Source: Treponema sp. (GTDB lineage: Bacteria > Spirochaetota > Spirochaetia > Treponematales > Breznakiellaceae). From it: a stretch of DNA of 40,445 nucleotides. The notes below the pieces were generated by a model. The model saw only the letters and a program-made list of their open reading frames with translations. It did no database searches and was not told where the DNA came from. Of this stretch, positions 7,049 to 40,330 are shown one piece after another (position 1 is the stretch's first letter; each line of letters starts with the position of its first letter). A program made the position numbers and the translations under genes. The stretch covers positions 1 to 40,445 of the forward strand of contig JAITEL010000048.1 of assembly GCA_031282065.1 (NCBI GenBank), in the 5' to 3' direction.

Positions 7049-8050
7049 ATGGGTGTACAACTACACAATGGAACGTCTCTGCCGAATATCCCCTGGGAGG
7101 AGCGGCCCCAGGCAGGCAGGCATGAGGTGCTATGGCGGTATTCCGGGAATCCGGTTATTCCCCGGAATCTGACCGCCTCGGCAAACAGCATTTTTAATAG
7201 TGCGGTCGTCCCTTTTAAGGGGGGCTTTGCAGGGGTGTTCCGTTGTGATAATACCAGCCGGCAGATGAATATTTACGCAGGACGCAGTAAAGACGGCTTG
7301 CAGTGGGCCATTGAGGATGAGCCCATTGCGTTCAGCAAGACCGATCCGGAACTGCCCGATGCAGAGTATAAATACGATCCCAGGGTGATCTTTATCGAGG
7401 ATCGCTGGTACCTCATGTGGTGTAACGGCTACCATGGCCCCTGTATAGGGCTCGGGTATACCTTTGACTTTGAGCGCTTTTATCTTTTGGAAAACCCCCT
7501 CATGCCCTTTAACCGCAATGGGGTCCTCTTCCCCCGGAAGATCCGCGGCAGCTATGCCATGCTGAGCCGTCCCAGCGATTCAGGGCATACCCCCTTTGGG
7601 GACATCATCTATTCTGAAAGTCCGGATCTCACCTATTGGGGAAAGCACCGGCATGTTATGGCGCCCCTGGGCTGGCAAAGCGCCTGGCAGAGTACCAAGA
7701 TAGGCGCAGGCCCGGTACCCATTGAAACCTCCGAAGGCTGGCTCCTGTTCTACCACGGGGTCTTGACCAGTTGTAACGGGTTTGTGTATTCCTTTGGTGC
7801 GGCCCTGCTGGATTTGGAGCAGCCCTGGAAGCCCATTGCCCGCTCCCGGCCCTATCTCTTATCCCCTCAGGCTTTGTATGAGTGTGTCGGGGATGTGCCC
7901 AATGTTACCTTTCCCTGCGCCTGCCTGGTGGACGCTGACACGGGGCGCTTAGCCATCTACTACGGCTGTGCAGACACCGTTACGGGGCTGGCTTTTGGGT
8001 ATATTGATGAAGTGCTTGACTTTGTGAAGCGGCATAATTGTCTTAACTAG
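7049..8050 (+). CDS. GH130 family beta-mannoside phosphorylase
   Basis: Likely a cytoplasmic phosphorylase that splits beta-mannosides (for example mannobiose or mannosyl-glucose) with phosphate to give mannose 1-phosphate. The product has about 333 residues and no signal peptide. The five-bladed propeller of GH130 is suggested by repeated strand motifs such as [79 protein letters not shown] and [12 protein letters not shown]. The catalytic Asp of the family is probably that in KYDPRV. The exact substrate cannot be read from the sequence. AAGGAG at 7038-7043 fits the ATG at 7049 better than the one at 7046. Its stop codon lies inside the first unit of the 23-bp repeat array. Confidence 0.85.
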
Positions 8051-8184
8051 GACAAGGGGCTTGGCTAAGCTAGGACAAGGGTCTTGGCTAAGCTAGGACA
8101 AGAGGCTTGTCTTAACTAGGACAAGGGTCTTGGCTAAGCTAGGACAAGGGGCTTGGCTAAGCTAGGACAAGGGGCTTGGCTAAG
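8047..8184. repeat. 23-bp palindromic minisatellite, array A (6 units)
   Basis: CTAGGACAAG starts at 8047, 8070, 8093, 8116, 8139 and 8162, an exact 23-bp period. Each unit ends with CTTGGCTAAG or CTTGTCTTAA, an approximate inverted copy of its beginning. A partial unit follows at 8185. The GH130 stop codon (8048-8050) is part of the first unit. The repeat is related to arrays at 17183 and 24361. There are no unique spacers, so it is not CRISPR. Confidence 0.95.
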
Positions 8185-8251
8185 CTGAAGGTCAGATGGG
8201 GCATAGGCGAGCCCTCTGGGGAATGTGTTAGAGAGGAGGCAGTGAAGGCCC

Positions 8252-17139: not shown

Positions 17140-17182
17140 CGCCTTTAAGCCTGTCCCCCTTTGGGTATTCCCCTTGGCTTAA

Positions 17183-17320
17183 CTGGGACAAGCCCCTTGT
17201 CTTAGCTAGGACAAGCCCCTTGTCTTAGCTGGGACAAGCTCCTTGTCTTAGCTAGGACAAGCCCCTTGTCTTAACTAGGACAAGAGTCTTGCCCTAGCCG
17301 GGACAAGCCCCGCGAAGCCG
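17183..17320. repeat. 23-bp palindromic minisatellite, array B
   Basis: CTAGGACAAG or CTGGGACAAG/CCGGGACAAG begins at 17183, 17206, 17229, 17252, 17275 and 17298, an exact 23-bp period. Units continue with CCCCTTGTCTTAG, so each is a near palindrome. It shares its half-site with arrays A and C. Located between xdhC and the next gene. Confidence 0.95.
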
Positions 17321-18453: not shown

Positions 18454-19773
18454 ATGGAAGGGACGAGTTTTGTGCTCAAAGGGGACATCTGCTACAGCAA
18501 GACCCCGACTTCCCTCTTTACCGCGGAACAGGGCTTTCTGGTGTGTACCCAGGGAACATCCGCCGGGGTCTTTGATAGGTTCTCCCGCATACCTCAGGAA
18601 TACCAGCACCTGCCCTGCATAGACTGCAGCGGAAAGCTCATCATACCGGGCCTGGTGGACCTGCACATGCACGCCCCCCAGTTTGCCTTCAGAAGCCTGG
18701 GCATGGATCTGGAACTGCTGGACTGGCTTGAAACCTGGGCTTTCCCCGAAGAAGCCAAGTACCAGGATATAAGCTACGCCCTTCGAGCCTATAGGGCCTT
18801 AGTGGCGGACTTACAGCAAGGCCCCAATACCCGGCTTTGCATCTTTGGGACGGTCCATGTACCGGCCACCCTCCTTTTGATGGAGCTCCTGGAGCACTCG
18901 GGGCTTGTGTGCATGGTCGGTAAGGTCAACATGGACCGCAACAGCCCCGACAGCCTGCGGGAAGCGGATGCTGAACGCTCTGAGGCGGCTACCCGGCAAT
19001 GGCTTGAGCAATGCAAGACATACCGGCGCTGCAAAGCCATCCTTACCCCGCGCTTTATTCCCTCCTGTAGTGATGATCTTATGCGCCGCTTGTCCGCGAT
19101 ACAGCGGCAGTATGGGCTTCCCGTGCAGTCCCATGTATCGGAGAATCTGCGGGAAGTCGCCTGGGTACGGGAACTGAGCCCGGAGGCAAGCTGCTATGGG
19201 GATGCCTATGCCCGTTTTGACCTGTTTGGGGGCGAGGTACCGACTATCATGGCCCACTGTGTCTATTCAGGGAGCAAGGAGATAGCGCTTATGCAGCGCC
19301 GGGGAGTCTATGTTGCCCACTGCCCCCAGTCAAACATAAACCTTTCTTCAGGGATAGCGCCGGTACGACGCTTTCTTGAGGCAGGGCTCTCAGTGGGTTT
19401 GGGCAGCGATGTGGCCGGAGGGGTGCATACCTCAATCTTTCGGGCCATGAGCGATGCCATTGGGGTCTCCAAGCTGCGCCGGTGTATGGGGGCAAAGGAT
19501 GAGGCGCCCCTGAGCTTAGAGGAGGCCTTTTATCTGGGCACCCGGGGAGGGGGTTCTTTCTTCGGCCAGGTGGGGTCTTTTGAGGCAGGGTATGAATTCG
19601 ACGCCCTGGTTATGGAGGACCCCAAGCCCCTTCCGCCCTTTGCGCTGACGGTGAAGGAGCGGCTTGAACGGATAGTGTGGTGCTCCGATGATCGTTCCAT
19701 CCTGAAAAAATACATCCGCGGCACCCCCCAGCCCGCCAGCGGGTTTAAGGCCCCTGACGGGCAGTGGCGGTAA
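18454..19773 (+). CDS. guaD: Guanine deaminase
   Basis: Zinc amidohydrolase converting guanine to xanthine and ammonia, which would feed the xdhABC enzyme. The 439 residues show the metal motif GLVDLHMHAPQFAFRSLGMD, the guanine-deaminase-type LLDWLETWAFPEEAKY, TPRFIPSCSDDLM, metal-site His in QSHVSEN and AHCVY, and the catalytic-site Asp in GLGSDVAGG. It begins six bases after the DUF192 gene without a strong ribosome site. The last codons, encoding GFKAPDGQWR, lie inside a dispersed repeat that also follows gyrA, so the C-terminus may have been replaced or extended by repeat-derived sequence. Confidence 0.9.
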   Translation: MEGTSFVLKGDICYSKTPTSLFTAEQGFLVCTQGTSAGVFDRFSRIPQEYQHLPCIDCSGKLIIPGLVDLHMHAPQFAFRSLGMDLELLDWLETWAFPEEAKYQDISYALRAYRALVADLQQGPNTRLCIFGTVHVPATLLLMELLEHSGLVCMVGKVNMDRNSPDSLREADAERSEAATRQWLEQCKTYRRCKAILTPRFIPSCSDDLMRRLSAIQRQYGLPVQSHVSENLREVAWVRELSPEASCYGDAYARFDLFGGEVPTIMAHCVYSGSKEIALMQRRGVYVAHCPQSNINLSSGIAPVRRFLEAGLSVGLGSDVAGGVHTSIFRAMSDAIGVSKLRRCMGAKDEAPLSLEEAFYLGTRGGGSFFGQVGSFEAGYEFDALVMEDPKPLPPFALTVKERLERIVWCSDDRSILKKYIRGTPQPASGFKAPDGQWR

Positions 19774-19850
19774 GGAATCGAAGCGCCCCTTGCCTCCAGA
19801 TGAGCAGGACAGAATTCCGGGGGGCTTGGGGGGCCCTTCGGCCCCCCATA
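19741..19850 (+). repeat. Dispersed repeat with GC-rich palindrome (copy 2)
   Basis: This stretch matches 40216-40330: GGGTTTAA-GCCC, TGACGGGCAGTGG, AAGCGCCCCTTGCCT, GAGCAGGAC versus GATCAGGAC, TTCCGGGGGG and GGGGGGCC-TTCGGCC, in the same order. It starts within the guaD coding end. The palindromic part (19811-19847) forms a GGGGGGCC-CTTC-GGCCCCCC hairpin between the convergent guaD and TPR genes and may end transcription from both sides, although no T-tract follows. Confidence 0.85.
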
Positions 19851-22451: not shown

Positions 22452-24104
22452 TTAGTCCCTTAGAATGGCCCCTGAAGCGGCAGAACTCACCTGCCGGGCA
22501 TACCGGGCCAGGTAGCCGCTCTGCACCTTGGGGGGCAGGGGCTTCCAGGCGGCTTTACGTTCTTCCATCACCTGAGCAGGGGCCTTGCAGTTGATGCTCC
22601 GGCCTTCAATATCAATGGCGATGATATCCCCTTCTTCAAGCAGCGCAATAGGGCCGCCCTCGGCAGCCTCCGGGGAGACATGGCCTATGGCCGCTCCCCG
22701 GGTGGCCCCGGAAAAGCGGCCGTCCGTGATGAGGGCCACCTTATCGTCCAGGCCCATACCCGCTAAGGCTGCGGTAGGGGCCAGCATTTCCTTCATGCCC
22801 GGCCCGCCTCGGGGGCCCTCGTAACGGATGACGATCACGTCTCCGGCTTTGATCTTTCCTGCCATGATCGCATCAAAGGCGGCTTCTTCCGCATCAAAGA
22901 CCCGGGCAGGCCCTTCGTGCTTCAGCATGGACGGGGCCACGGCACCGCGCTTTACCACACAGCCTTCAGGGGCCAGGTTACCCTTGAGTGCGGCAAGACC
23001 TCCGGTAGGGGAATAGGGATCCTCTATGGGCCGGATAACTGCGCTGTTCCGGTTCACCGCAAGGCTGTCCCCCAGCACGCCGTAGACCGTAGCCGCTTCC
23101 AATCTCAGGAGCTTTCTTTTAGCCAGTTCCCCCAGCACTGCGGGAACCCCCCCGGCAGCGTGGAGGGCTTCGATGGGGGTGGAACTAGCCGGGGCCAGTT
23201 TGCAGAGATTCGGGGTTACCGCGCTTACCTGGTTCAAAAGGTCCAGCCCCAAGGTGAATCCCGCTTCATGGGCAATGGCCGGCAGGTGCAGCGCCGTATT
23301 GGTGGAACAGCCCAGGGCCATATCCAGGGCCAGGGCGTTCATAAAGGCGTTTTCCGTAAGGATAGACCGGGGCCGGAGGTCTTTCTTCCACAGCTCCAGG
23401 GCCAAAACCCCGGTCTTTTTGGCAAGCCGCAGCCGCTCAGCCATGACCGCGGGGATGGTCCCGTTCCCGGGCAGGGCCATTCCCAGGGCTTCGGTAACGC
23501 AGTTCATGGAATTCGCGGTGAACATCCCTGAACAGGACCCGCAGCCCGGGCAGGCCGCCTCTTCCAGGGCCTTAAGCTCCGATTCGTCCATCTTGCCGGC
23601 GGCCACGGCTCCCACCGCCTCATACACCGTCGTAAAGGTCAGGGGTTTACCGTCCTTTGTTCCTGCCAGCATAGGCCCGCCGGAGACAAAGACCGCAGGC
23701 AGGTTGAGCCGGGCTGCCGCCATAAGCATCCCAGGGACTATCTTGTCGCAGTTAGGGATGCAGATAAGGGCATCGAAACCGTGGGCCATGACCATACATT
23801 CGATGGAATCGGCGATGAGTTCCCGGGTTGCTAAAGAATAGCGCATCCCCTCATGGCCCATAGCGATCCCGTCGCATACCCCTATCACCGGGAAGCGGAC
23901 CGGGACTCCCCCTGCCAGGCGTACCCCCTCTGCTGCGGCCCGGGCAATGCTGTCCAGGTGTACATGACCGGGTACGATCTCGCTTTGTGCCACTGCAATA
24001 CCGATGAGGGGTCTTGCAAATTCTTCATCAATGAACCCCAGGGCCTTAAACAAGGACCGGTGGGGTGCCCGGGCAATACCGTTCTTTACCACATCACTTC
24101 TCAT
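22452..24104 (-). CDS. ilvD: Dihydroxy-acid dehydratase
   Basis: Fe-S dehydratase for the third common step of branched-chain amino acid synthesis. The 550 residues include the cluster cysteines in [13 protein letters not shown] and [36 protein letters not shown], the [12 protein letters not shown] motif and [20 protein letters not shown] near the C-terminus, all family signatures. GGAGGAG stands directly ahead of the ATG. A promoter (TTGACG/ACAATA) about 130 bases upstream would drive ilvD-ilvB and possibly the TPR gene. Its leader contains an unbroken 37-codon ORF that has no Leu/Ile/Val run, so attenuation is not supported. Confidence 0.95.
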
Positions 24105-24232: not shown

Positions 24233-24261
24233 TATTGTGCCTATTTAAAAGGCTGCGTCAA
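24233..24261 (-). promoter_or_regulatory. Probable promoter of ilvD-ilvB
   Basis: On the minus strand, TTGACG (24261-24256), a 17-base spacer and ACAATA (24238-24233). The -35 element abuts the edge of the 84-bp repeat copy at 24261-24336. The predicted leader to the ilvD ATG is about 120 bases. Confidence 0.5.
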
Positions 24262-24336
24262 CACCTGCGGTGGGCGTAGCGGGGGGCGGCGTAGTGAGGG
24301 AACACGGCGCAGTCCCTTCGTTCCTGCCTCTGGCAG
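24261..24336 (-). repeat. Single intergenic copy of the purL 84-bp repeat
   Basis: ACACCTGCGGTGGGCGTAG (24261-24279) and GTCCCTTCGTTCCTGCCTC (24312-24330) are exact matches, in the same order and orientation, to units of the minisatellite inside purL (for example around 27663-27732). The middle of this copy has diverged. It lies between ilvD and the 23-bp array C. Confidence 0.85.
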
Positions 24337-24360
24337 AGAGCAGCTTACATAAAAGGCTAG

Positions 24361-24690
24361 TCCTAGGGTAAGGCCAGGGGCTTGTCCTAGGTAAGCCAAG
24401 AGGCTTGTCCTAGGTAAGGCAGGAGGCTTGTCCTAGCTAGGCCAGGAGGCTTGTCCTAGCTAAGGCAAGGGGCATGGCCTAGCTAGGCCAAGGAGCTTGT
24501 CCTAGCTAGGCCAAGGGGCATGTCCTAGCTAAGCCAAGAAGCATGTCCTAGCTAAGCCAAGAAGCATATCCTAGCTAAGCCAAGGGGCATGTCCTAGTTA
24601 AGCCAAGAAGCATGTCCTAGTTAAGGCCAGGGGCATGTCCTAGCTAAGGCAAGAGGCTTGTCCCAGCTAAGGCCGGGAGGCTTGTCCTGC
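24361..24690. repeat. 23-bp palindromic minisatellite, array C (about 14 units)
   Basis: TCCTAG anchors (one GCCTAG, one TCCCAG, one TCCTGC) occur at 24361, 24385, 24408, 24431, 24454, 24477, 24500, 24523, 24546, 24569, 24592, 24615, 24638, 24661 and 24685: twelve intervals of 23 bp and one of 24 bp at each end. The units (CTTGTCCTAG, CTAAGCCAAG) are the reverse complement of array A units. It fills most of the 734-bp gap between ilvD and the next gene; no gene is seen in the gap. Confidence 0.95.
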
Positions 24691-24838: not shown

Positions 24839-25519
24839 ATGACCAGGGGTATCTTACTAGCAGGAAATGAATCATCTTTGTCCTCTGCGGTGGCAGTGGA
24901 AGCGGCTAAACGGGTTGAGTACTTTGCCGCAGCGTTTATTCCCAATCGGCTTACGGAACCCATAGGGCCTAAGACCCTTCCTGCGGCAGAATCCCTGATT
25001 CCCCTTCACTGGAATCCGGGAAGCCCGGTTTCGGCCCGGACCCTTATCTTGGCAACGGAAAACCGCCTGGAGCATATCAATGAAGCCCTCCTCATCTGTG
25101 TGCCCCCTTCGGTACGCAGGCACCCGGGAGAGCTGGTGGCCACGGAAATCGAAATCATGGTCAACGATCACATCAAGGGCTGGTTCTTCCTGGTCAAGGA
25201 ATTAACCGCCCTCTTTCGGGTGAAGAAAACCGGAACCCTGGCCCTGGTCCTCTCTGAGCTCGATCCCGGAGGGGGAAGGGAGGAAGCCCCGGACCTCCTG
25301 GGGGCTTGCGCCGTAGAGTCATTTCGGGCCTTTACCCAGGGCTTACTGTATTCTTCCCTGGAAGAGCCCTTCCGAATCCTGGGCTTTTGTGCTTCTGAAT
25401 CCAGCAATGATCCGGATTTTGCCGCCTTTATCTTTAAAGTCCTGGAAGAAGGGGGGAAGCGGAATAACGGCAAGTGGCTGAGGTTTGGTAAAGGCCGCGG
25501 CATCTTCGGCAGATACTAG
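24839..25519 (+). CDS. SDR-like protein of unknown function
   Basis: A 226-residue protein with a degenerate Rossmann, short-chain-dehydrogenase-like layout. The N-terminal ILLAGNESSLSSAVAVEAAK resembles the cofactor loop. The segment VATEIEIMVNDHIKGWFFLVKELTALFR resembles the SDR helix 5, followed by a strand TGTLALVLSE and a helix ACAVESFRAFTQGLL. The catalytic Tyr-x-x-x-Lys is not found and the loop lacks the classic glycines, so it may be non-catalytic. This assignment rests on pattern resemblance only. Its stop overlaps the purL stop (convergent genes, 4 bases). The start has no ribosome site. Confidence 0.6.
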   Translation: MTRGILLAGNESSLSSAVAVEAAKRVEYFAAAFIPNRLTEPIGPKTLPAAESLIPLHWNPGSPVSARTLILATENRLEHINEALLICVPPSVRRHPGELVATEIEIMVNDHIKGWFFLVKELTALFRVKKTGTLALVLSELDPGGGREEAPDLLGACAVESFRAFTQGLLYSSLEEPFRILGFCASESSNDPDFAAFIFKVLEEGGKRNNGKWLRFGKGRGIFGRY

Positions 25520-28500
25520 CTGAAATACCCCACGCCTGCCTCAAAAATACCCTGGTATTTGTTTCCCGGAATGTTGCGGTGCACGTATGCTCCTGCACGC
25601 TCACTATGCCCCATCTTCCCCAGGATCCTTCCGTCAGGGCTGGTGAGCCCTTCTATGGCAAAATCCGAGCCATTGGGATTATCCGGTTCAGCCGCAGTGG
25701 GCAGCCCCTCCTCATTCACATAACAGAAAGGAACCTGCCCTGCCTTGAACAGGGCCTCTCCCTGGGCCTTGTCTATGACCAGGCGGCCTTCCCCGTGGCT
25801 TACGGGGATCACCTGGATGGTCCCCGGGGCTTCCTGGGCAAGCCAAGGGGACAGGTTAGACATCACCTTGGTACGGACCATCCGGGACACATGCCGGCCG
25901 ATACGGTTGCAGGTCAGGGTCGGCATGGCGGGGTCAGCCTCACGGTAGGTACCGTAGGGCACCAGCCCCAGCTTGATGAGGGCCTGGAACCCGTTACATA
26001 TCCCCAGGATAAGGCCGTCCCGTGCCTCCAAAAGCCCGTGCAGCCCTTCCCTGATACGGGGCGCCCTGAACACATTGGCGATAAACTTCCCTGAGCCCTC
26101 CGGTTCATCTCCTGCGCTGAATCCCCCTGAGAGCGCGAGTATCCGGGCTTCTCCCAGGGCTGAGGCTAATTCCTTAATGGATGCCTGAATCTGCTGCCGG
26201 TTTTGGTTTCTGAATACCAGCAGGCGGGTGGACCCGCCGGCCCTGCGAAAGGCCCGTGCCATGTCCCATTCCCCGTTGGTTCCGGGAAACACCGGCAGGA
26301 TCACCAGGGGGCCCTGGCGGTTCAGGAGGGAAAAAGGGGGCCTGGGTTTAGGTGCGGCAGGGCTCCCCTTGTTTCGCCAATCCTGAGGCTCAAAGGCAAA
26401 GGTTTCCTCCTTCCCCGGATCTTGCTCGGCTACGGTCCTTCCCTGGGAGGTCTGGGGATAGACCCTGTTGAGGGGACCTTCATAAGCCTGTCGCAGCAGG
26501 GCCAGGGAAACACCTGCCGTGGGCGCGCCTGCGGCGGGCATAGAGGGAGCGGCGGACTGAGGGGGTACGGCATACGTCCCTTCGTTCCTGCCTCCGGCAC
26601 CTGCGGGCTCGCCTGCGGTGGGCGCGTCTGCGGTGTGCAAAGGGGGAGGGGCGGACTGGGTGAGTACGGCATACGTTCCTTCGTTTCTGCCTCCGGCACC
26701 TGCGGGCGCGCCTGCGGTGGGCGCGTCTGCGGTGTGCAAAGGGGGAGGGGCGGACTGGGTGAGTACGGCATAGGTCCCTTCGTTTCTGCCTCCGGCACCT
26801 GCGGGCACACCTGCCGTGGGCATAGGGGGAGTGGCGGACTGAGGGGGTACGGCATACGTCCCTTCGTTCCTGCCTCCGGCACCTGCGGGCACACCTGCGG
26901 TGGGCATAGGGGGAGTGGCGGACTGAGGGGGTACGGCATACGTCCCTTCGTTTCTGCTTCCGGCACCTGCGGGCGCGCCTGCGGCGGGCGTAGAGGGAGC
27001 GGCGGACTGAGGGGGTACGGCATACGTCCCTTCGTTTCTGCTTCCGGCACCTGCCGGCGCGCCTGCGGTGGGCGTAGAGGGAGCGGCGGACTGAGGGGGT
27101 ACGGCATACGTCCCTTCGTTTCTGCCTCCGGCACCTGCGGGCACACCTGCGGTGGGCAAAGAGGGAGTGGCGGACTGGGGGAGTACGGCATACGTCCCTT
27201 CGTTCCTGCTTCCGGCACCTGCGGGCGCGTCTGCGGTGTGCAAAGGGGGAGCGGCGGACTGGGGGAGTACGGCATACGTCCCTTCGTTCCTGCCTCCGGC
27301 ACCTGCCGGCGCACCTGCGGTGGGCGTAGAGGGAGTGGCGGACTGGGGGAGTACGGCATACGTCCCTTCGTTCCTGCCTCCAGCATCTGCGGGCGCGCCT
27401 GCGGTGGGCGTAGAGGGAGCGGCGGACTGAGGGGGTACGGCATACGTTCCTTCGTTTCTGCCTCCGGCACCTGCGGGCACACCTGCGGTGGGCAAAGGGG
27501 GAGGGGCGGACTGAGGGAGTACGGCATACGTCCCTTCGTTTCTGCTTCCGGCACCTGCGGGCGCGCCTGCGGTGGGCGTAGAGGGAGTGGCGGACTGAGG
27601 GGGTACGGCATACGTCCCTTCGTTCCTGCCTCCAGCATCTGCGGGCGCGCCTGCGGTGTGCACACCTGCGGTGGGCGTAGAGGGAGTGGCGGACTGGGGG
27701 GGTACGGCATACGTCCCTTCGTTCCTGCCTCCGGCACCTGCCGCCTCGCTGGCGAGGCGTATCCTGAAAAGGGGTTCTCCTATGGTCTTTGCGGCAAGCG
27801 CCCATGCCCCGGCTCCTGCAAGGCTCCGGGCCAGGGCATCCGGGGAACAGGCGCCCGCGTCGAGTTCCACCAGGACCGCGCCCTGGTAGCTGCTCTGGTC
27901 AAGCAGGGAGCAGGCCTGCGCCTCTGCTTCAAGGCCCGCCCTATTGCCAAAGGCCATGAGCGCCAGGCTCGCGGCTATGCCCCCGGGACCTACCGGGTAT
28001 GCCGCCCGGACCAGTCCCGCCCGGTGCAGGGCCATGAGGGTCTCCATATTCGCCTTAAAGCACTCCCATTCGTCCTTTTGAGGCTCCTCATACAGCAGAA
28101 CTATGGGGTTTCCCGGGGCTCCGCTGAGGGCGCCGGAACAGATAGACCCTGCCGGGGCCGTACCCGCGGCAAAGGCCACCAGGCTTGGGGGAACACATAG
28201 GGATATGCCCTGCTCCTCATCATGATAGGTTCCCGACATGGAATCCTTGCCTCCAATGGCAGGCACCTGCAAGGCTAGCTGGGCTTCCAAGGCCCCTAAG
28301 AGCGCGGCCGCGGGTTTTCCCCAGGAGGCCGGCCTTTCCGGGCGTTCAAAGTATTCCTGTAAGGAAAGCCGGCTGGTCCAGGGATTTCCCCCCAGGCAGG
28401 CGAATTTGGCGAGGGCTTCTTTGATGGCGCCCTTGGCTCCCCTATAGGGGTTTTGACCGCTCAGCTCCGGGTTGTACCCATAGCTCATAAGGCTTGCGGT

Positions 28501-30669
28501 AGCACTGCACCGGTCTGTCGTGGAGATGAGGCTTGCCATGCCGCATTCAGGGGTTCCCTGTTCTTTGCCCCCCCAGGGGAAGAGCACCGAAGCGGCCCCC
28601 ACCGAGCCGTCGAAGCCTTCTTGCAGCCCCCGCCTGCTTCCTGAGCGCAGGGAGCCGAGTTCTTGTTGCAGCCGTTCCAGTACCTGCTCCGGCGAGAAGT
28701 GCGGCGCCTGTGGCGCACTTCTGCTTGAGGCTCCCGTGGGAAGGAGGACCTGGGCAAACCGGGGAGCGCCGCCTGAGTTGAGAAAGTGCCGGGACAGGTC
28801 TACGATACATGTACCCCGCCAGTGCATACAAAGCCGCGGACCTGCTTCTCCGGGGCCCAGGGCAGCCGCATCCTGGCCGCCTGCCAGGACTTCCGCGATG
28901 ACCGTGGCCTCAAGGTTTTCCTCCCGGGCATAGCGGATGAAGCGCTCCGCAGCATCCGGGGAGAGGACCACCGCCATGCGCTCCTGGGATTCGGAAAGGG
29001 CCAGCTCCACCCCGTCAAGGCCGGTATATTTCTTGGGGATACTATCCAAATCCACCCTGAGACCCGATGCCAGTTCTCCCACCGCTACCGCAAGCCCTCC
29101 GGCGCCAAAGTCATTGCACCGTTTGATAAGGCTGCTTACCTGGGGATTACGGAAGAGGCGCTGCAGCTTCCGTTCTTCCAGGGCATTGCCTTTCTGCACT
29201 TCCGCAGCGGAACCGGCCACCGATGCCCCATGATGGGCCTTGGAAGAACCGGTGGCCCCTCCTATACCGTCCCTTCCGGTTTTACCCCCCACCAGGAGCA
29301 CCAGATCCCCCTTTTTCGGTTCCTCCCGCCTCACCCAAGCTGCGGGGACCGCCCCCATCACGGCCCCCAGTTCCATGCGTTTTGCAAGAAACCCGGGATG
29401 GTACCATTCGCTTACCTGTCCTGTGGCAAGCCCTATCTGGTTTCCATAGGAAGCAAAGCCCTGTGCGGCTTCCCTGGCCAGCTTGATCTGGGGGAGCTTC
29501 CCCGGAAGCGTCTCAGAGAGCCGGGCCCGGGGATCCCCGCCTCCACAGATACGCATGGCCTGATGTACATAGGCCCTCCCGGAGAGGGGATCCCGAATGG
29601 CTCCCCCTAAACAGGTGGCAGCTCCTCCAAAGGGTTCAATCTCCGTAGGGTGGTTATGGGTCTCATTCTTAAACAGGAGCAGCCAGGGCTCCTGCCGGCT
29701 TATACCTGCATCCCTGAATTCCACCGGTACCTTGACGGTACAGGCGTTGATTTCCTCAGATACATCCACATCCTCCAGGAGCCCTTGTTTCTTGAGCACC
29801 TTTGCCCCAATGGTGGCTATGTCCATAAGGGTCTTCGGCGGGGCTTCCCCATGGGCATACACATACCGGCGGGCAGCTTCGTAGCGCGCCAGGGCCTGTT
29901 TGAGGCCGGGATCGAGGCTGGTTTCATCCCCATTGAGGATGTGCAGCGCGGTGGTAAAGGTGCTGTGCCGGCAGTGATCAGACCAGTAGGTATCCAGCAG
30001 GCGGAGCTCGGCCAGGCTCGGCTCCCGGGAGCAGGAGGAGAAATAGGACTGGCAGCAGCGCAGATCCGCTTCGGACATGGCCAGCCCATAGCGCGCTTGC
30101 AGCGCTGCAAGGTCCCCAGTCCGGGAAAATCCGGTCAGCACCGGAATATCCTGGACCGCTGCCTGGGCTTCCTCGAAAAGGGCATAGGGAGAAGCCTCCC
30201 GAGAATCCACGGGGTTTATCAGGTACTGTTTCACCCCTTCCAGGCTGGCATCCGAGAGGGGAGCTGAGGAGTGGAACAGATAAAACCGGGCGGTCTTCAC
30301 CCGCGGTTTTACCCCGGTTACCAGTTCAATGCACTGTTCTGCTGAATCCGCCCGTTGATCGTATTGGCCCGGCAGGTACTCTATCCCAAAATACCGGTCT
30401 TTCGCTGCTGCGGGAATCAAAGGGCCGTAAAACACCCTATCGCAGGGGGCTTCAGAAAGCACCAGGGCCACTGCCTGCCTCCATTGGGCTTCGCTCAGAC
30501 CGGCCACATCGTAGCGCTGGAGGATCCGTATTCCCTGTAAGGAGGCCAGGTCAGGATAGCGGCTCCCCAGAAAACCGGTGAGATCCTGGAGGAGATCCCC
30601 GGCCTCCCGGCTAAAGCCCTCGCGTTTTTCTACATATACCCGTTGGATAGTCTCCTGTAGTGCTTTCAT
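25516..30669 (-). CDS. purL: Phosphoribosylformylglycinamidine synthase with large repeat insert
   Basis: FGAM synthase: ATP- and glutamine-dependent fourth step of de novo purine synthesis, single-chain form. The 1717 residues compare with about 1250-1300 in the family; the excess equals a 412-residue repeat insert (residues about 974-1385). Synthetase signatures are TYWSDHCRHSTFTT, FKNETHNHPTEIEPFGGAAT, CNDFGAGGLAVAVGEL, and AIGGKDSMSGTY. After the insert, GVSLALLRQAYEGPLNRVYP resumes the domain, and the glutaminase domain follows: PVFPGTNGEWDMA, nucleophile Cys in LGICNGFQALIKLG, PVSHGEGRLV and GKMGHSERAGAY. AAGGAG precedes the ATG. No frameshift is visible, so the enzyme is probably functional despite the insertion. 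Confidence 0.93.
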   Translation of the reverse strand: MKALQETIQRVYVEKREGFSREAGDLLQDLTGFLGSRYPDLASLQGIRILQRYDVAGLSEAQWRQAVALVLSEAPCDRVFYGPLIPAAAKDRYFGIEYLPGQYDQRADSAEQCIELVTGVKPRVKTARFYLFHSSAPLSDASLEGVKQYLINPVDSREASPYALFEEAQAAVQDIPVLTGFSRTGDLAALQARYGLAMSEADLRCCQSYFSSCSREPSLAELRLLDTYWSDHCRHSTFTTALHILNGDETSLDPGLKQALARYEAARRYVYAHGEAPPKTLMDIATIGAKVLKKQGLLEDVDVSEEINACTVKVPVEFRDAGISRQEPWLLLFKNETHNHPTEIEPFGGAATCLGGAIRDPLSGRAYVHQAMRICGGGDPRARLSETLPGKLPQIKLAREAAQGFASYGNQIGLATGQVSEWYHPGFLAKRMELGAVMGAVPAAWVRREEPKKGDLVLLVGGKTGRDGIGGATGSSKAHHGASVAGSAAEVQKGNALEERKLQRLFRNPQVSSLIKRCNDFGAGGLAVAVGELASGLRVDLDSIPKKYTGLDGVELALSESQERMAVVLSPDAAERFIRYAREENLEATVIAEVLAGGQDAAALGPGEAGPRLCMHWRGTCIVDLSRHFLNSGGAPRFAQVLLPTGASSRSAPQAPHFSPEQVLERLQQELGSLRSGSRRGLQEGFDGSVGAASVLFPWGGKEQGTPECGMASLISTTDRCSATASLMSYGYNPELSGQNPYRGAKGAIKEALAKFACLGGNPWTSRLSLQEYFERPERPASWGKPAAALLGALEAQLALQVPAIGGKDSMSGTYHDEEQGISLCVPPSLVAFAAGTAPAGSICSGALSGAPGNPIVLLYEEPQKDEWECFKANMETLMALHRAGLVRAAYPVGPGGIAASLALMAFGNRAGLEAEAQACSLLDQSSYQGAVLVELDAGACSPDALARSLAGAGAWALAAKTIGEPLFRIRLASEAAGAGGRNEGTYAVPPQSATPSTPTAGVHTAGAPADAGGRNEGTYAVPPQSATPSTPTAGAPAGAGSRNEGTYAVLPQSAPPPLPTAGVPAGAGGRNEGTYAVPPQSAAPSTPTAGAPADAGGRNEGTYAVLPQSATPSTPTAGAPAGAGGRNEGTYAVLPQSAAPPLHTADAPAGAGSRNEGTYAVLPQSATPSLPTAGVPAGAGGRNEGTYAVPPQSAAPSTPTAGAPAGAGSRNEGTYAVPPQSAAPSTPAAGAPAGAGSRNEGTYAVPPQSATPPMPTAGVPAGAGGRNEGTYAVPPQSATPPMPTAGVPAGAGGRNEGTYAVLTQSAPPPLHTADAPTAGAPAGAGGRNEGTYAVLTQSAPPPLHTADAPTAGEPAGAGGRNEGTYAVPPQSAAPSMPAAGAPTAGVSLALLRQAYEGPLNRVYPQTSQGRTVAEQDPGKEETFAFEPQDWRNKGSPAAPKPRPPFSLLNRQGPLVILPVFPGTNGEWDMARAFRRAGGSTRLLVFRNQNRQQIQASIKELASALGEARILALSGGFSAGDEPEGSGKFIANVFRAPRIREGLHGLLEARDGLILGICNGFQALIKLGLVPYGTYREADPAMPTLTCNRIGRHVSRMVRTKVMSNLSPWLAQEAPGTIQVIPVSHGEGRLVIDKAQGEALFKAGQVPFCYVNEEGLPTAAEPDNPNGSDFAIEGLTSPDGRILGKMGHSERAGAYVHRNIPGNKYQGIFEAGVGYFS
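26515..27750 (-). repeat. 84-bp in-frame minisatellite inside purL (14 copies)
   Basis: The encoded motif NEGTYAV occurs 14 times. The 28-residue unit is approximately GAPAGAGGR-NEGTYAV-PPQSATPSTPTA, and neighbouring copies such as 26851 and 26935 are exactly 84 bp apart. Variation is concentrated in the Pro/Ser/Thr part, with a few extra 12-bp to 15-bp insertions (THTAGAPA-, DAPTA-type). The encoded segment is Gly/Ala/Pro-rich and likely disordered. No stop occurs in any copy, and other frames on both strands are also open across the array. It lies between two strands of the C-terminal synthetase domain (FRIRLASEA ... VSLALLRQAYEG). Confidence 0.95.
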
Positions 30670-37784: not shown

Positions 37785-40223
37785 GTGCTTAAAAGTGGAA
37801 AAATTATATCGGTTGCCATAGAAGATGAAGTAAAGACGGCGTATCTGAACTACGCCATGTCGGTTATTGTGGCCCGGGCCTTGCCGGATGTGCGGGACGG
37901 CTTAAAACCCGTGCACCGCAGGCTGCTGTATGCTATGGACGAGCTGGGACTGCGGCCTAATGCAGCCACCAAGAAGAGCGCCCGCATCACTGGTGACGCG
38001 ATGGGTAAGTACCACCCCCATGGGGACGCCTCCATTTATGACGCCCTGGTTCGTATGGCTCAGGACTTCTCCTTGCGCTATCCCTTGGTACAAGGCCAGG
38101 GTAACTTCGGCTCCCTCGACGGCGACCCTCCTGCGGCTATGCGTTACACCGAAGCCCGGCTTTCCCGTATCGGCGACGAACTGCTCTTGGATCTCAAGAA
38201 AGAGACCGTGGATTTTGTTCCCAATTACGACGAATCCCTTATGGAACCTCTGGTCCTCCCTGCTGCGGTACCGAATCTGCTCATCAACGGGTCCAGCGGC
38301 ATTGCCGTGGGTATGGCCACTAACATGGCCCCTCATAACCTGGTGGAAGTCTGTCAGGGGATCTGCGCATACATTGATAACCCCGATATTACCCTGGAAG
38401 CCCTGATGCAGCATATAAGCGGCCCGGACTTTCCCACCGGAGGCATCATCCTGGGCCGCCGGGGCATAAAAGAAGCCTATAAGCTGGGCCGGGGTAAGAT
38501 CATGATTCGGGGCCGCTTCACCGTGGAGACCACCAAATCCGGCAGAGAGATCATCGTTTTCCATGACATCCCCTATACGGTGAACAAGGCCTCCCTGATT
38601 ATTCGGATTAGCGAACTCATTCGGGACAAGATCATAGACGGTATTGCCGAACACCGGGACGAATCTGACCGGGAGGGCCTGAGGATCGTGATTGAACTCA
38701 AAAAGGGGGCCATCCTCAAGGTCGTGCTGAACCAGCTCTTCTCCCATACGACCTTGCAATCCTCCTTCAGTATCATCAACCTGGCCCTGGTCCAGGGTAA
38801 ACCCCGGTGCCTGGGCCTCAAGGAACTGATCCATTACTTTGTGGAACACCGGGTTGAGGTGATCACCCGGAGAACCCGCTATGAGCTGCGCAAGGCGGAG
38901 GAGCGCTCCCATATTGTACAGGGGCTGCTCATCGCCCTGGAACACATTGATGAGGTGGTGGCCGGGGTGAGGGCTTCCCGGGACATCAACGTGGCCAAAA
39001 CCCGTCTGGAGGAGCGCTTTCACCTGTCCCCTATCCAGGCTTCTGCCATTGTGGACATGCGTCTTGGCAGGCTCACGAACCTAGAAACCGAGAAGGTCCG
39101 ACAAGAACTGTCCGAACTTTCCCTCTACATCGCATATCTGCGTTCCCTTTTGGAGGATGAGCGGAAACTGCGGGAACTCATCAAAGAGGAAACCCGCAGT
39201 ATTGCCGAGCGCTACGGGGATGATAGGCGCACGGCAATCATGAGCGGGGAAGTGGAGAACATCAATATCGAAGACCTCATCAAAAAAGAAGAAATGATGA
39301 TTCTCATTTCCAACCTGGGCTACATTAAGCGGATCCCGGTATCGGCCTACCGGAACCAGAGCCGGGGCGGTAAGGGCATGGTCAGCGCCCGCCTTGCGGA
39401 AGACGACTTTGTGGAGCAGATCTTCGTGGCTTCCACCCACGAGTACATCCTGTTCATCACCAGCGAGGGCCGGGCCTACTGGATGAAAGTCCACGAGCTC
39501 CCTGAAGGTTCCCGGATTTCCAAAGGGGTCCATATCAAGACCCTGCTCAAGGTTTCCTCCAATGAGGATATTACCGCGGTGGTGTCCCTCAAGGACTTTA
39601 CGGATGATCAGTACCTCTTCATGAGCACTGCCCGGGGCCTGGTCAAGAAGGTGCAAACCAGCATGTTTGCCAGTGCCAAAACCCGGGGAATTCATATCAT
39701 CAAGCTCAAGGAAGGGGATAAGCTGGTGAACGCCCTGCTCACCAGCGGAGATGATGCGGTGGTCTTCATCTCCCGCAAAGGCCTGGCCCTGCGTACGGCA
39801 GAGGATCAGATACGGGTCATGGGCCGCTTCAGCGGGGGGATCATCGGCATGAAGCTCGACGACGATGACGAGCTCACCGGCGTGCTCCGGGTGGATGATA
39901 GGGAGACCATGCTGCTCATCTCTGAATACGGCTTTGGCAAGCGGGTGAGTTTTAGCGAGTTTACTTCCCACGGCCGGGGAACCGGCGGGCAGCGCATCTA
40001 CACGGTGAGCGAGAAAACCGGCGAATTGGTGGGCTGCGTCAATGTCCGTGATACCGAGGAGATCATGGGTATCACCAGCCAAGGGAAGTCCCTCAAGCTT
40101 AAGGTGGAGGGCATCCGGGTTATGGGCCGGGCCGCCCAGGGGGTGCGCATCCTCAGTATCGACAAGCCGGACTTTGTTATCGGTGTGGATAGGATCGTCG
40201 GGGAAGCCCCCCAGGGGGTTTAA
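37785..40223 (+). CDS. gyrA: DNA gyrase subunit A
   Basis: Breakage-reunion subunit of gyrase, 812 residues. The catalytic Tyr is Y121 in [10 protein letters not shown]. The quinolone region reads [14 protein letters not shown]82 stands where E. coli has Ser83, and D86 matches Asp87. The C-terminal pinwheel domain contains QSRGGKG, close to the gyrase-specific box QRRGGKG, which favours GyrA over ParC. Start is GTG 37785 with AAGGA upstream. Repeat-derived sequence begins just at the stop codon. No gyrB is present in the window. Confidence 0.94.
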
Positions 40224-40330
40224 AGCCCATGACGGGCAGTGGTAATTAGGCAGCTAAGCGCCCCTTGCCTGTAGCTTGGGATGATCAGGACGAACTTCCG
40301 GGGGGTTTATGGGGGGCCTTTCGGCCCAGG
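40216..40330 (+). repeat. Dispersed repeat with GC-rich palindrome (copy 3)
   Basis: Matches 19741-19850 along about 110 bases: GGGTTTAA-GCCC, TGACGGGCAGTGG, TAAGCGCCCCTTGCCT, GATCAGGACGAACTTCC, GGGGGG, GGGGGGCCTTTCGGCC. It overlaps the gyrA stop codon. The GGGCC-TTTC-GGCCC hairpin may help end the gyrA transcript. Confidence 0.85.

Follow-up and report, generated by a model that had tools for sequence, protein, structure and literature searches.

The window, i.e. the whole stretch of DNA that was analysed, comprises 40,445 nt of contig JAITEL010000048.1 of Treponema sp. (GCA_031282065.1; whole genome 2.65 Mb). It contains ilvD and purL, an array of repeat modules inside purL and a lone copy of the same module beside the ilvD promoter (Table 1). 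This promoter, TTGACG-16-CACAAT (16-nt spacer), is the sole promoter-like site of the region in a consensus scan, and the stretch is conserved in several sister genomes. The terminal hairpin of the lone copy starts at the base adjoining TTGACG (24261–24256, minus strand), in agreement with the first-pass annotation of this DNA, which had the edge of the repeat touching the −35 box. The match of the lone copy to the family profile extends to 24352 (profile position 94), and the element proper begins at the hairpin C, at 24262.

Table 1 Features of the window that bear on the repeat family
Feature	Position	Strand	Basis
Module B, covering the 3′ end of an amidohydrolase-family ORF	19731..19796	-	Genome search, profile, Pfam
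ilvD (dihydroxy-acid dehydratase)	22452..24104	-	Pfam ILVD_EDD_N + ILV_EDD_C
ilvD promoter, −10 box CACAAT	24234..24239	-	Consensus scan; conserved in sister genomes
ilvD promoter, −35 box TTGACG, directly abutting the element	24256..24261	-	Consensus scan; conserved in sister genomes
Lone module A copy	24262..24335	+	Whole-genome search + family profile
Module A 5′ terminal hairpin CACC-TGC-GGTG	24262..24272	+	Covariation in 38 copies
23-bp tandem array after the lone copy, at synteny breakpoint	24354..24688		Tandem Repeats Finder
purL, 1717 aa including array	25516..30669	-	Pfam GATase_5, AIRS_C, FGAR-AT_linker
In-frame antisense array of 14 head-to-tail A modules within purL	26521..27741	+	Profile hits
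Module B, covering the 3′ end of a GyrA-family ORF	40204..40277	-	Profile, sequence, Pfam

The lone copy had originally been recognized by two 19-base matches to the purL units, and both proved to be exact. The 19-mer ACACCTGCGGTGGGCGTAG is located at 24261–24279 and occurs a second time at 27662, and GTCCCTTCGTTCCTGCCTC is located at 24312–24330 and recurs at six places of the purL array. Order and orientation are the same as in the purL units, with the array 2.2 kb away (first unit at 26521). Local alignment of a purL unit with the lone site gave a score of 77. The best score was 28 when the site was shuffled 2,000 times with dinucleotides preserved, and 34 when the whole window was shuffled 20 times. 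A search of the whole 2.65-Mb genome returned the site with E = 8e-13. Since these scores are far above those of the shuffles and the genome-wide E value points in the same direction, the match is real and not an accident of low-complexity sequence.

Alignment of 24 long copies yielded a full unit of approximately 190 bp, in which a middle stretch, M, separates module A (positions 1–77) from module B (122–195). Module A, of about 75 bp, is the unit that was noted originally. The parts of the earlier reading that concern dispersal, entry into purL and amplification stand, but it was incomplete, since what it took for the unit makes up just the 5′ module of a two-ended repeat; it also lacked the synteny breakpoint and the 23-bp tandem array beside the lone copy, as well as the preference of the copies for stop codons. 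Module A opens with a covarying hairpin and module B closes with a different one (CCCGC-TG-GCGGG). The A hairpin has the consensus C-N-CC-TGC-GG-N'-G, and 94.7% of the cells pair in a set of 38 diverse copies, where the second pair is found as A-T, G-C, C-G and T-A with 17 two-sided changes. The covariation score was not reached by any of 500 shuffles, and a one-base shift of the partner destroys the covariation. Only this terminal hairpin is claimed for module A, because RNAalifold found almost nothing in the fold of the whole module consensus; a second pairing, in columns 29–48, is weak. A scan of the window and three element loci against Rfam gave only a tRNA, with no match above the gathering score for the element. 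Units are seen singly, as head-to-tail arrays of the ~190-bp repeat and as fragments, and the copy on contig C65 of the same genome consists of A-M-B followed by more B. Module B is the abundant module in this genome, with about 47 matching places, two of them within the window.

The family is found almost only in one spirochaete genus. Besides the copy on C65, the window's genome carries a short array on contig C103, so that the case named earlier as a refutation, a genome with no further copies, does not apply. With two queries, nine of the ten other genomes of the genus have 1–34 detected matches and the tenth (G010) gave none; neither query matched any of 29 genomes of other genera. When the 189-bp consensus was compared with 150 genomes of the taxonomic family, matches were obtained in six genomes of the genus and in one of a second genus. 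All genomes compared are draft assemblies. The papers on termite-gut spirochaetes that our searches covered contain no description of the repeat.

The A hairpin starts directly behind a same-strand stop codon at 13 of 135 sites, whereas 0.06 would be expected from random placement in the same loci. This count covers 135 copies with distinct left flanks and ORFs of at least 100 aa from simple ORF calls in draft assemblies, with some non-independent sites contributed by close relatives. The abutted stops are TAA (10) and TAG (3), with no TGA, as compared to a background of 29% TGA (106/360). At the sites compared, the genes abutted by module A end where the genes of relatives end, which indicates that these stops are native; at several sites, however, the stop and its counterpart in the sisters do not share the third base. 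Module B behaves as a mirror image. When B is read from the hairpin end, a gene often takes its last codons and a TTTAA stop from it (distance −16), and other B copies sit 1–4 bases behind a stop. At one locus (G002:C23), a single full copy spans the whole space from the terminal TAA of one gene to an opposite-strand ORF whose TGA directly abuts the B hairpin. Closeness to stop codons as such is already known, since the REPs of Escherichia coli are reported to lie often 1–20 nt behind stops and to reduce translation when they are less than 16 nt away (PMC12306157). What is unusual is that the contact with stops is exact and that it occurs at either end of a two-headed unit. It is possible, although we consider it doubtful, that this reflects a boundary-seeking repeat, in which insertion chemistry or later trimming would set the element base to base against TAA or TAG stops and the −35 box of ilvD, and some full copies would occupy the space between two convergent stops.

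The array in purL consists of module A only, in units of 84 or 99 bp. It separates the GATase_5 domain from the synthase part, and the reading frame of the gene is kept across it. The assembly is a draft and mis-assembly of the array is possible, though the units differ among themselves. No insert is present at the array site in seven sister purL genes (G001, G003, G005, G006, G007, G009 and G010). Read in antisense, module A has no stop codon in any of the three frames, which makes this orientation tolerable in purL; in the sense direction, two of the three frames contain stops. These empty sites and the stop-free antisense strand bear out the earlier proposal that a repeat entered purL in a frame free of stops and was then amplified. 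Codon-position bias was considered as a sign of selection and rejected, as the minor alleles in ten 84-bp units are spread evenly over the codon positions (17, 16 and 17); nothing therefore suggests selection on the inserted peptide itself. In the set of copies examined, no other clear insertion was seen in the interior of a long conserved gene. By our judgement, which is no formal test, other ORFs that overlap copies appear to be frames that stay open across the arrays themselves.

At ilvD, the element is absent from all nine sister upstream regions that were compared, and the 23-bp array at 24354–24688 has no counterpart in the sister loci compared. On the far side, the window has no match in those sister upstream regions that were readable, and some of these contain, as judged by eye, ABC-transporter-like coding sequence. 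Furthermore, orf226 faces ilvD in the window but adjoins purL in the sisters, having kept its own conserved upstream stretch. The unshared far side and the placement of orf226 locate the lone copy and the 23-bp array at a synteny breakpoint. The 23-bp arrays (CTAGGACAAGGGGCTTGGCTAAG) constitute a second dispersed family, which occupies several intergenic places (8047–8186, 17170–17311 and 24354–24688 in the window) and is also found on contigs C175, C141, C150 and C74.

Compared with known systems, the element resembles REP and BIME sequences in being dispersed, hairpin-forming, mostly located outside genes, mosaic and clustered, and often close behind stops. The GTAG/CGTC REPs are defined by a unit of about 20–40 bp, a constant terminal tag and a link to a RAYT (PMC3733652), whereas the present unit measures ~75–190 bp and has two different terminal hairpins, its GTAG motif is variable (GTAG, GTTA, GAAG, GTTG) and lies on the 3′ side of the 5′ hairpin, and none of the 20 Y1 loci examined is flanked by the repeat. 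Exact contact with stop codons is a further difference from REPs. Like the bacterial MITEs (Correia, ERIC, RUP and others), the element is short, non-coding, multi-copy and presumably moved in trans, and some MITEs also sit at promoters, but the pair of terminal inverted repeats and the target-site duplication of MITEs were not found. With the Rickettsia palindromic elements it shares the presence of a dispersed repeat in frame in a metabolic gene, here purL only; unlike those elements (PMC10969869), nearly all copies are outside genes or at gene ends.

Several other explanations deserve consideration. The proximity of the purL array and the two common 19-mers could suggest that the lone copy is a local duplicate of a purL unit, but this is extremely improbable in view of the similarity ranking: the lone copy is closest to copies in G009 and on C65 (86%), as compared to 80% for the purL units, and it scores 70 bits against the family profile, where the purL units reach 35–60 bits. 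An origin as a purL offshoot was discarded for this reason, and the earlier view, that of a dispersed element rather than of purL sequence expanded in place, is upheld. The chance that the copies are integron attC sites is negligible. Such sites also sit just behind the stops of cassette genes, and those of T. denticola measure 63–68 bp (PMC3607928). However, no integron integrase exceeded the TIGR02249 cut-off in any of the 11 genomes, the R-box AAC triplet is missing from the TAG|CACC junctions, housekeeping genes lie alongside the copies, and no integrons were found in the termite-gut treponemes studied (PMC3607928). Selection might also keep the hairpin flush with stops because of a role in RNA, such as termination or 3′-end stability, as proposed for E. 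coli REPs. The covariation of the hairpin, the exact adjacency to stops and the ribosome stalling reported for REPs within 15 nt of a stop (PMC12306157) would fit such a role, which is nevertheless quite unlikely, as most copies do not follow a stop codon and many sister genes have no element at the corresponding place.

Two further alternatives concern the enzyme by which the repeat would be moved. Mobilization by a RAYT, an IS200-like Y1 enzyme that recognizes and pastes single-strand hairpins, agrees with the hairpin ends, with the fact that no target duplication was found and with the occurrence of Y1 proteins in 10 of the 11 genomes of the genus, two proteins in the window's genome having a full-looking catalytic region. 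On the other hand, a module was present within about 1.5 kb at only one of the 20 Y1 loci and none of these loci was flanked, a constant GTAG or CGTC tag is missing, and G006 (66% complete) combines 34 detected element matches with a single Y1 match, so we regard this route as unlikely. A MITE of the classical type, for which a DDE transposase acts on terminal inverted repeats and duplicates the target site, would likewise be short, non-coding and multi-copy with defined ends. Here the two ends are different hairpins instead of an inverted pair, and the comparison of flanks for target-site duplications that followed from the first-pass annotation revealed none: in 17 clean full copies, the words shared by the two flanks do not exceed in length those obtained when the pairings are shuffled (P = 0.64). 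This makes a classical MITE very unlikely. The idea of a TA target dinucleotide was also abandoned, since copies located elsewhere than behind genes do not conform to it.

The explanation that we favour, with a probability of roughly 0.8, is that in the lone copy we see the 5′ portion, module A, of a non-autonomous, hairpin-capped interspersed repeat whose family belongs to this spirochaete genus and resembles REP, BIME and MITE sequences. Because neither a linked transposase nor a target-site duplication was found, the movement of the element is itself something that we infer. Full A-M-B copies of ~190 bp would have been spread in trans by some enzyme and would survive mostly between genes, especially flush behind stops, after which they may duplicate, shrink and be tandemly amplified through recombination or slippage. 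A single module A probably entered purL in antisense and was amplified, presumably along such a route, to 14 in-frame units that would form a passive and neutral insert. Another module A has come to rest at a rearrangement breakpoint, its hairpin set against the −35 box of ilvD and the promoter left intact, and is likely to be neutral for this gene. The purL array is of interest as a natural instance in which a non-coding dispersed repeat has turned into a 14-unit in-frame insert of a purine-synthesis enzyme, with the corresponding sites of close relatives empty. The filled and empty sites across the genus provide a way to ask how short interspersed repeats reach stop codons, an adjacency also reported for E. 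coli REPs.

Some additional observations were made. The last codons and the stop (TTTAA) of the GyrA-family ORF come from its module B copy (40204–40223). At one orthologous site, a 15-bp hairpin unit has replaced the last codons of the gene in loci L103 and L146 (G004:C170 and G008:C14) as compared to L308 and L355; the unit is present in both close relatives and has later diverged (CACCTGCGGTGAGCG versus CACCTGCACTAA), which shows turnover of the 5′ hairpin unit. Multi-copy Y1_Tnp-like proteins of ~150 aa with an INNREPLF motif, which have apparently lost the HUH motif of intact Y1 proteins, are encoded seven times in the window's genome (G000, contigs C58, C99, C153, C90, C154, C55 and C112; L395–L401). 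Many copies are also present in G009 and G005, where Y1 matches number up to 18 and 25, respectively. Finally, Tandem Repeats Finder detected an array of a ~152-bp unit containing CCCCGTCATTGCGAGCAAAGCGA at positions 65–977 of the window.
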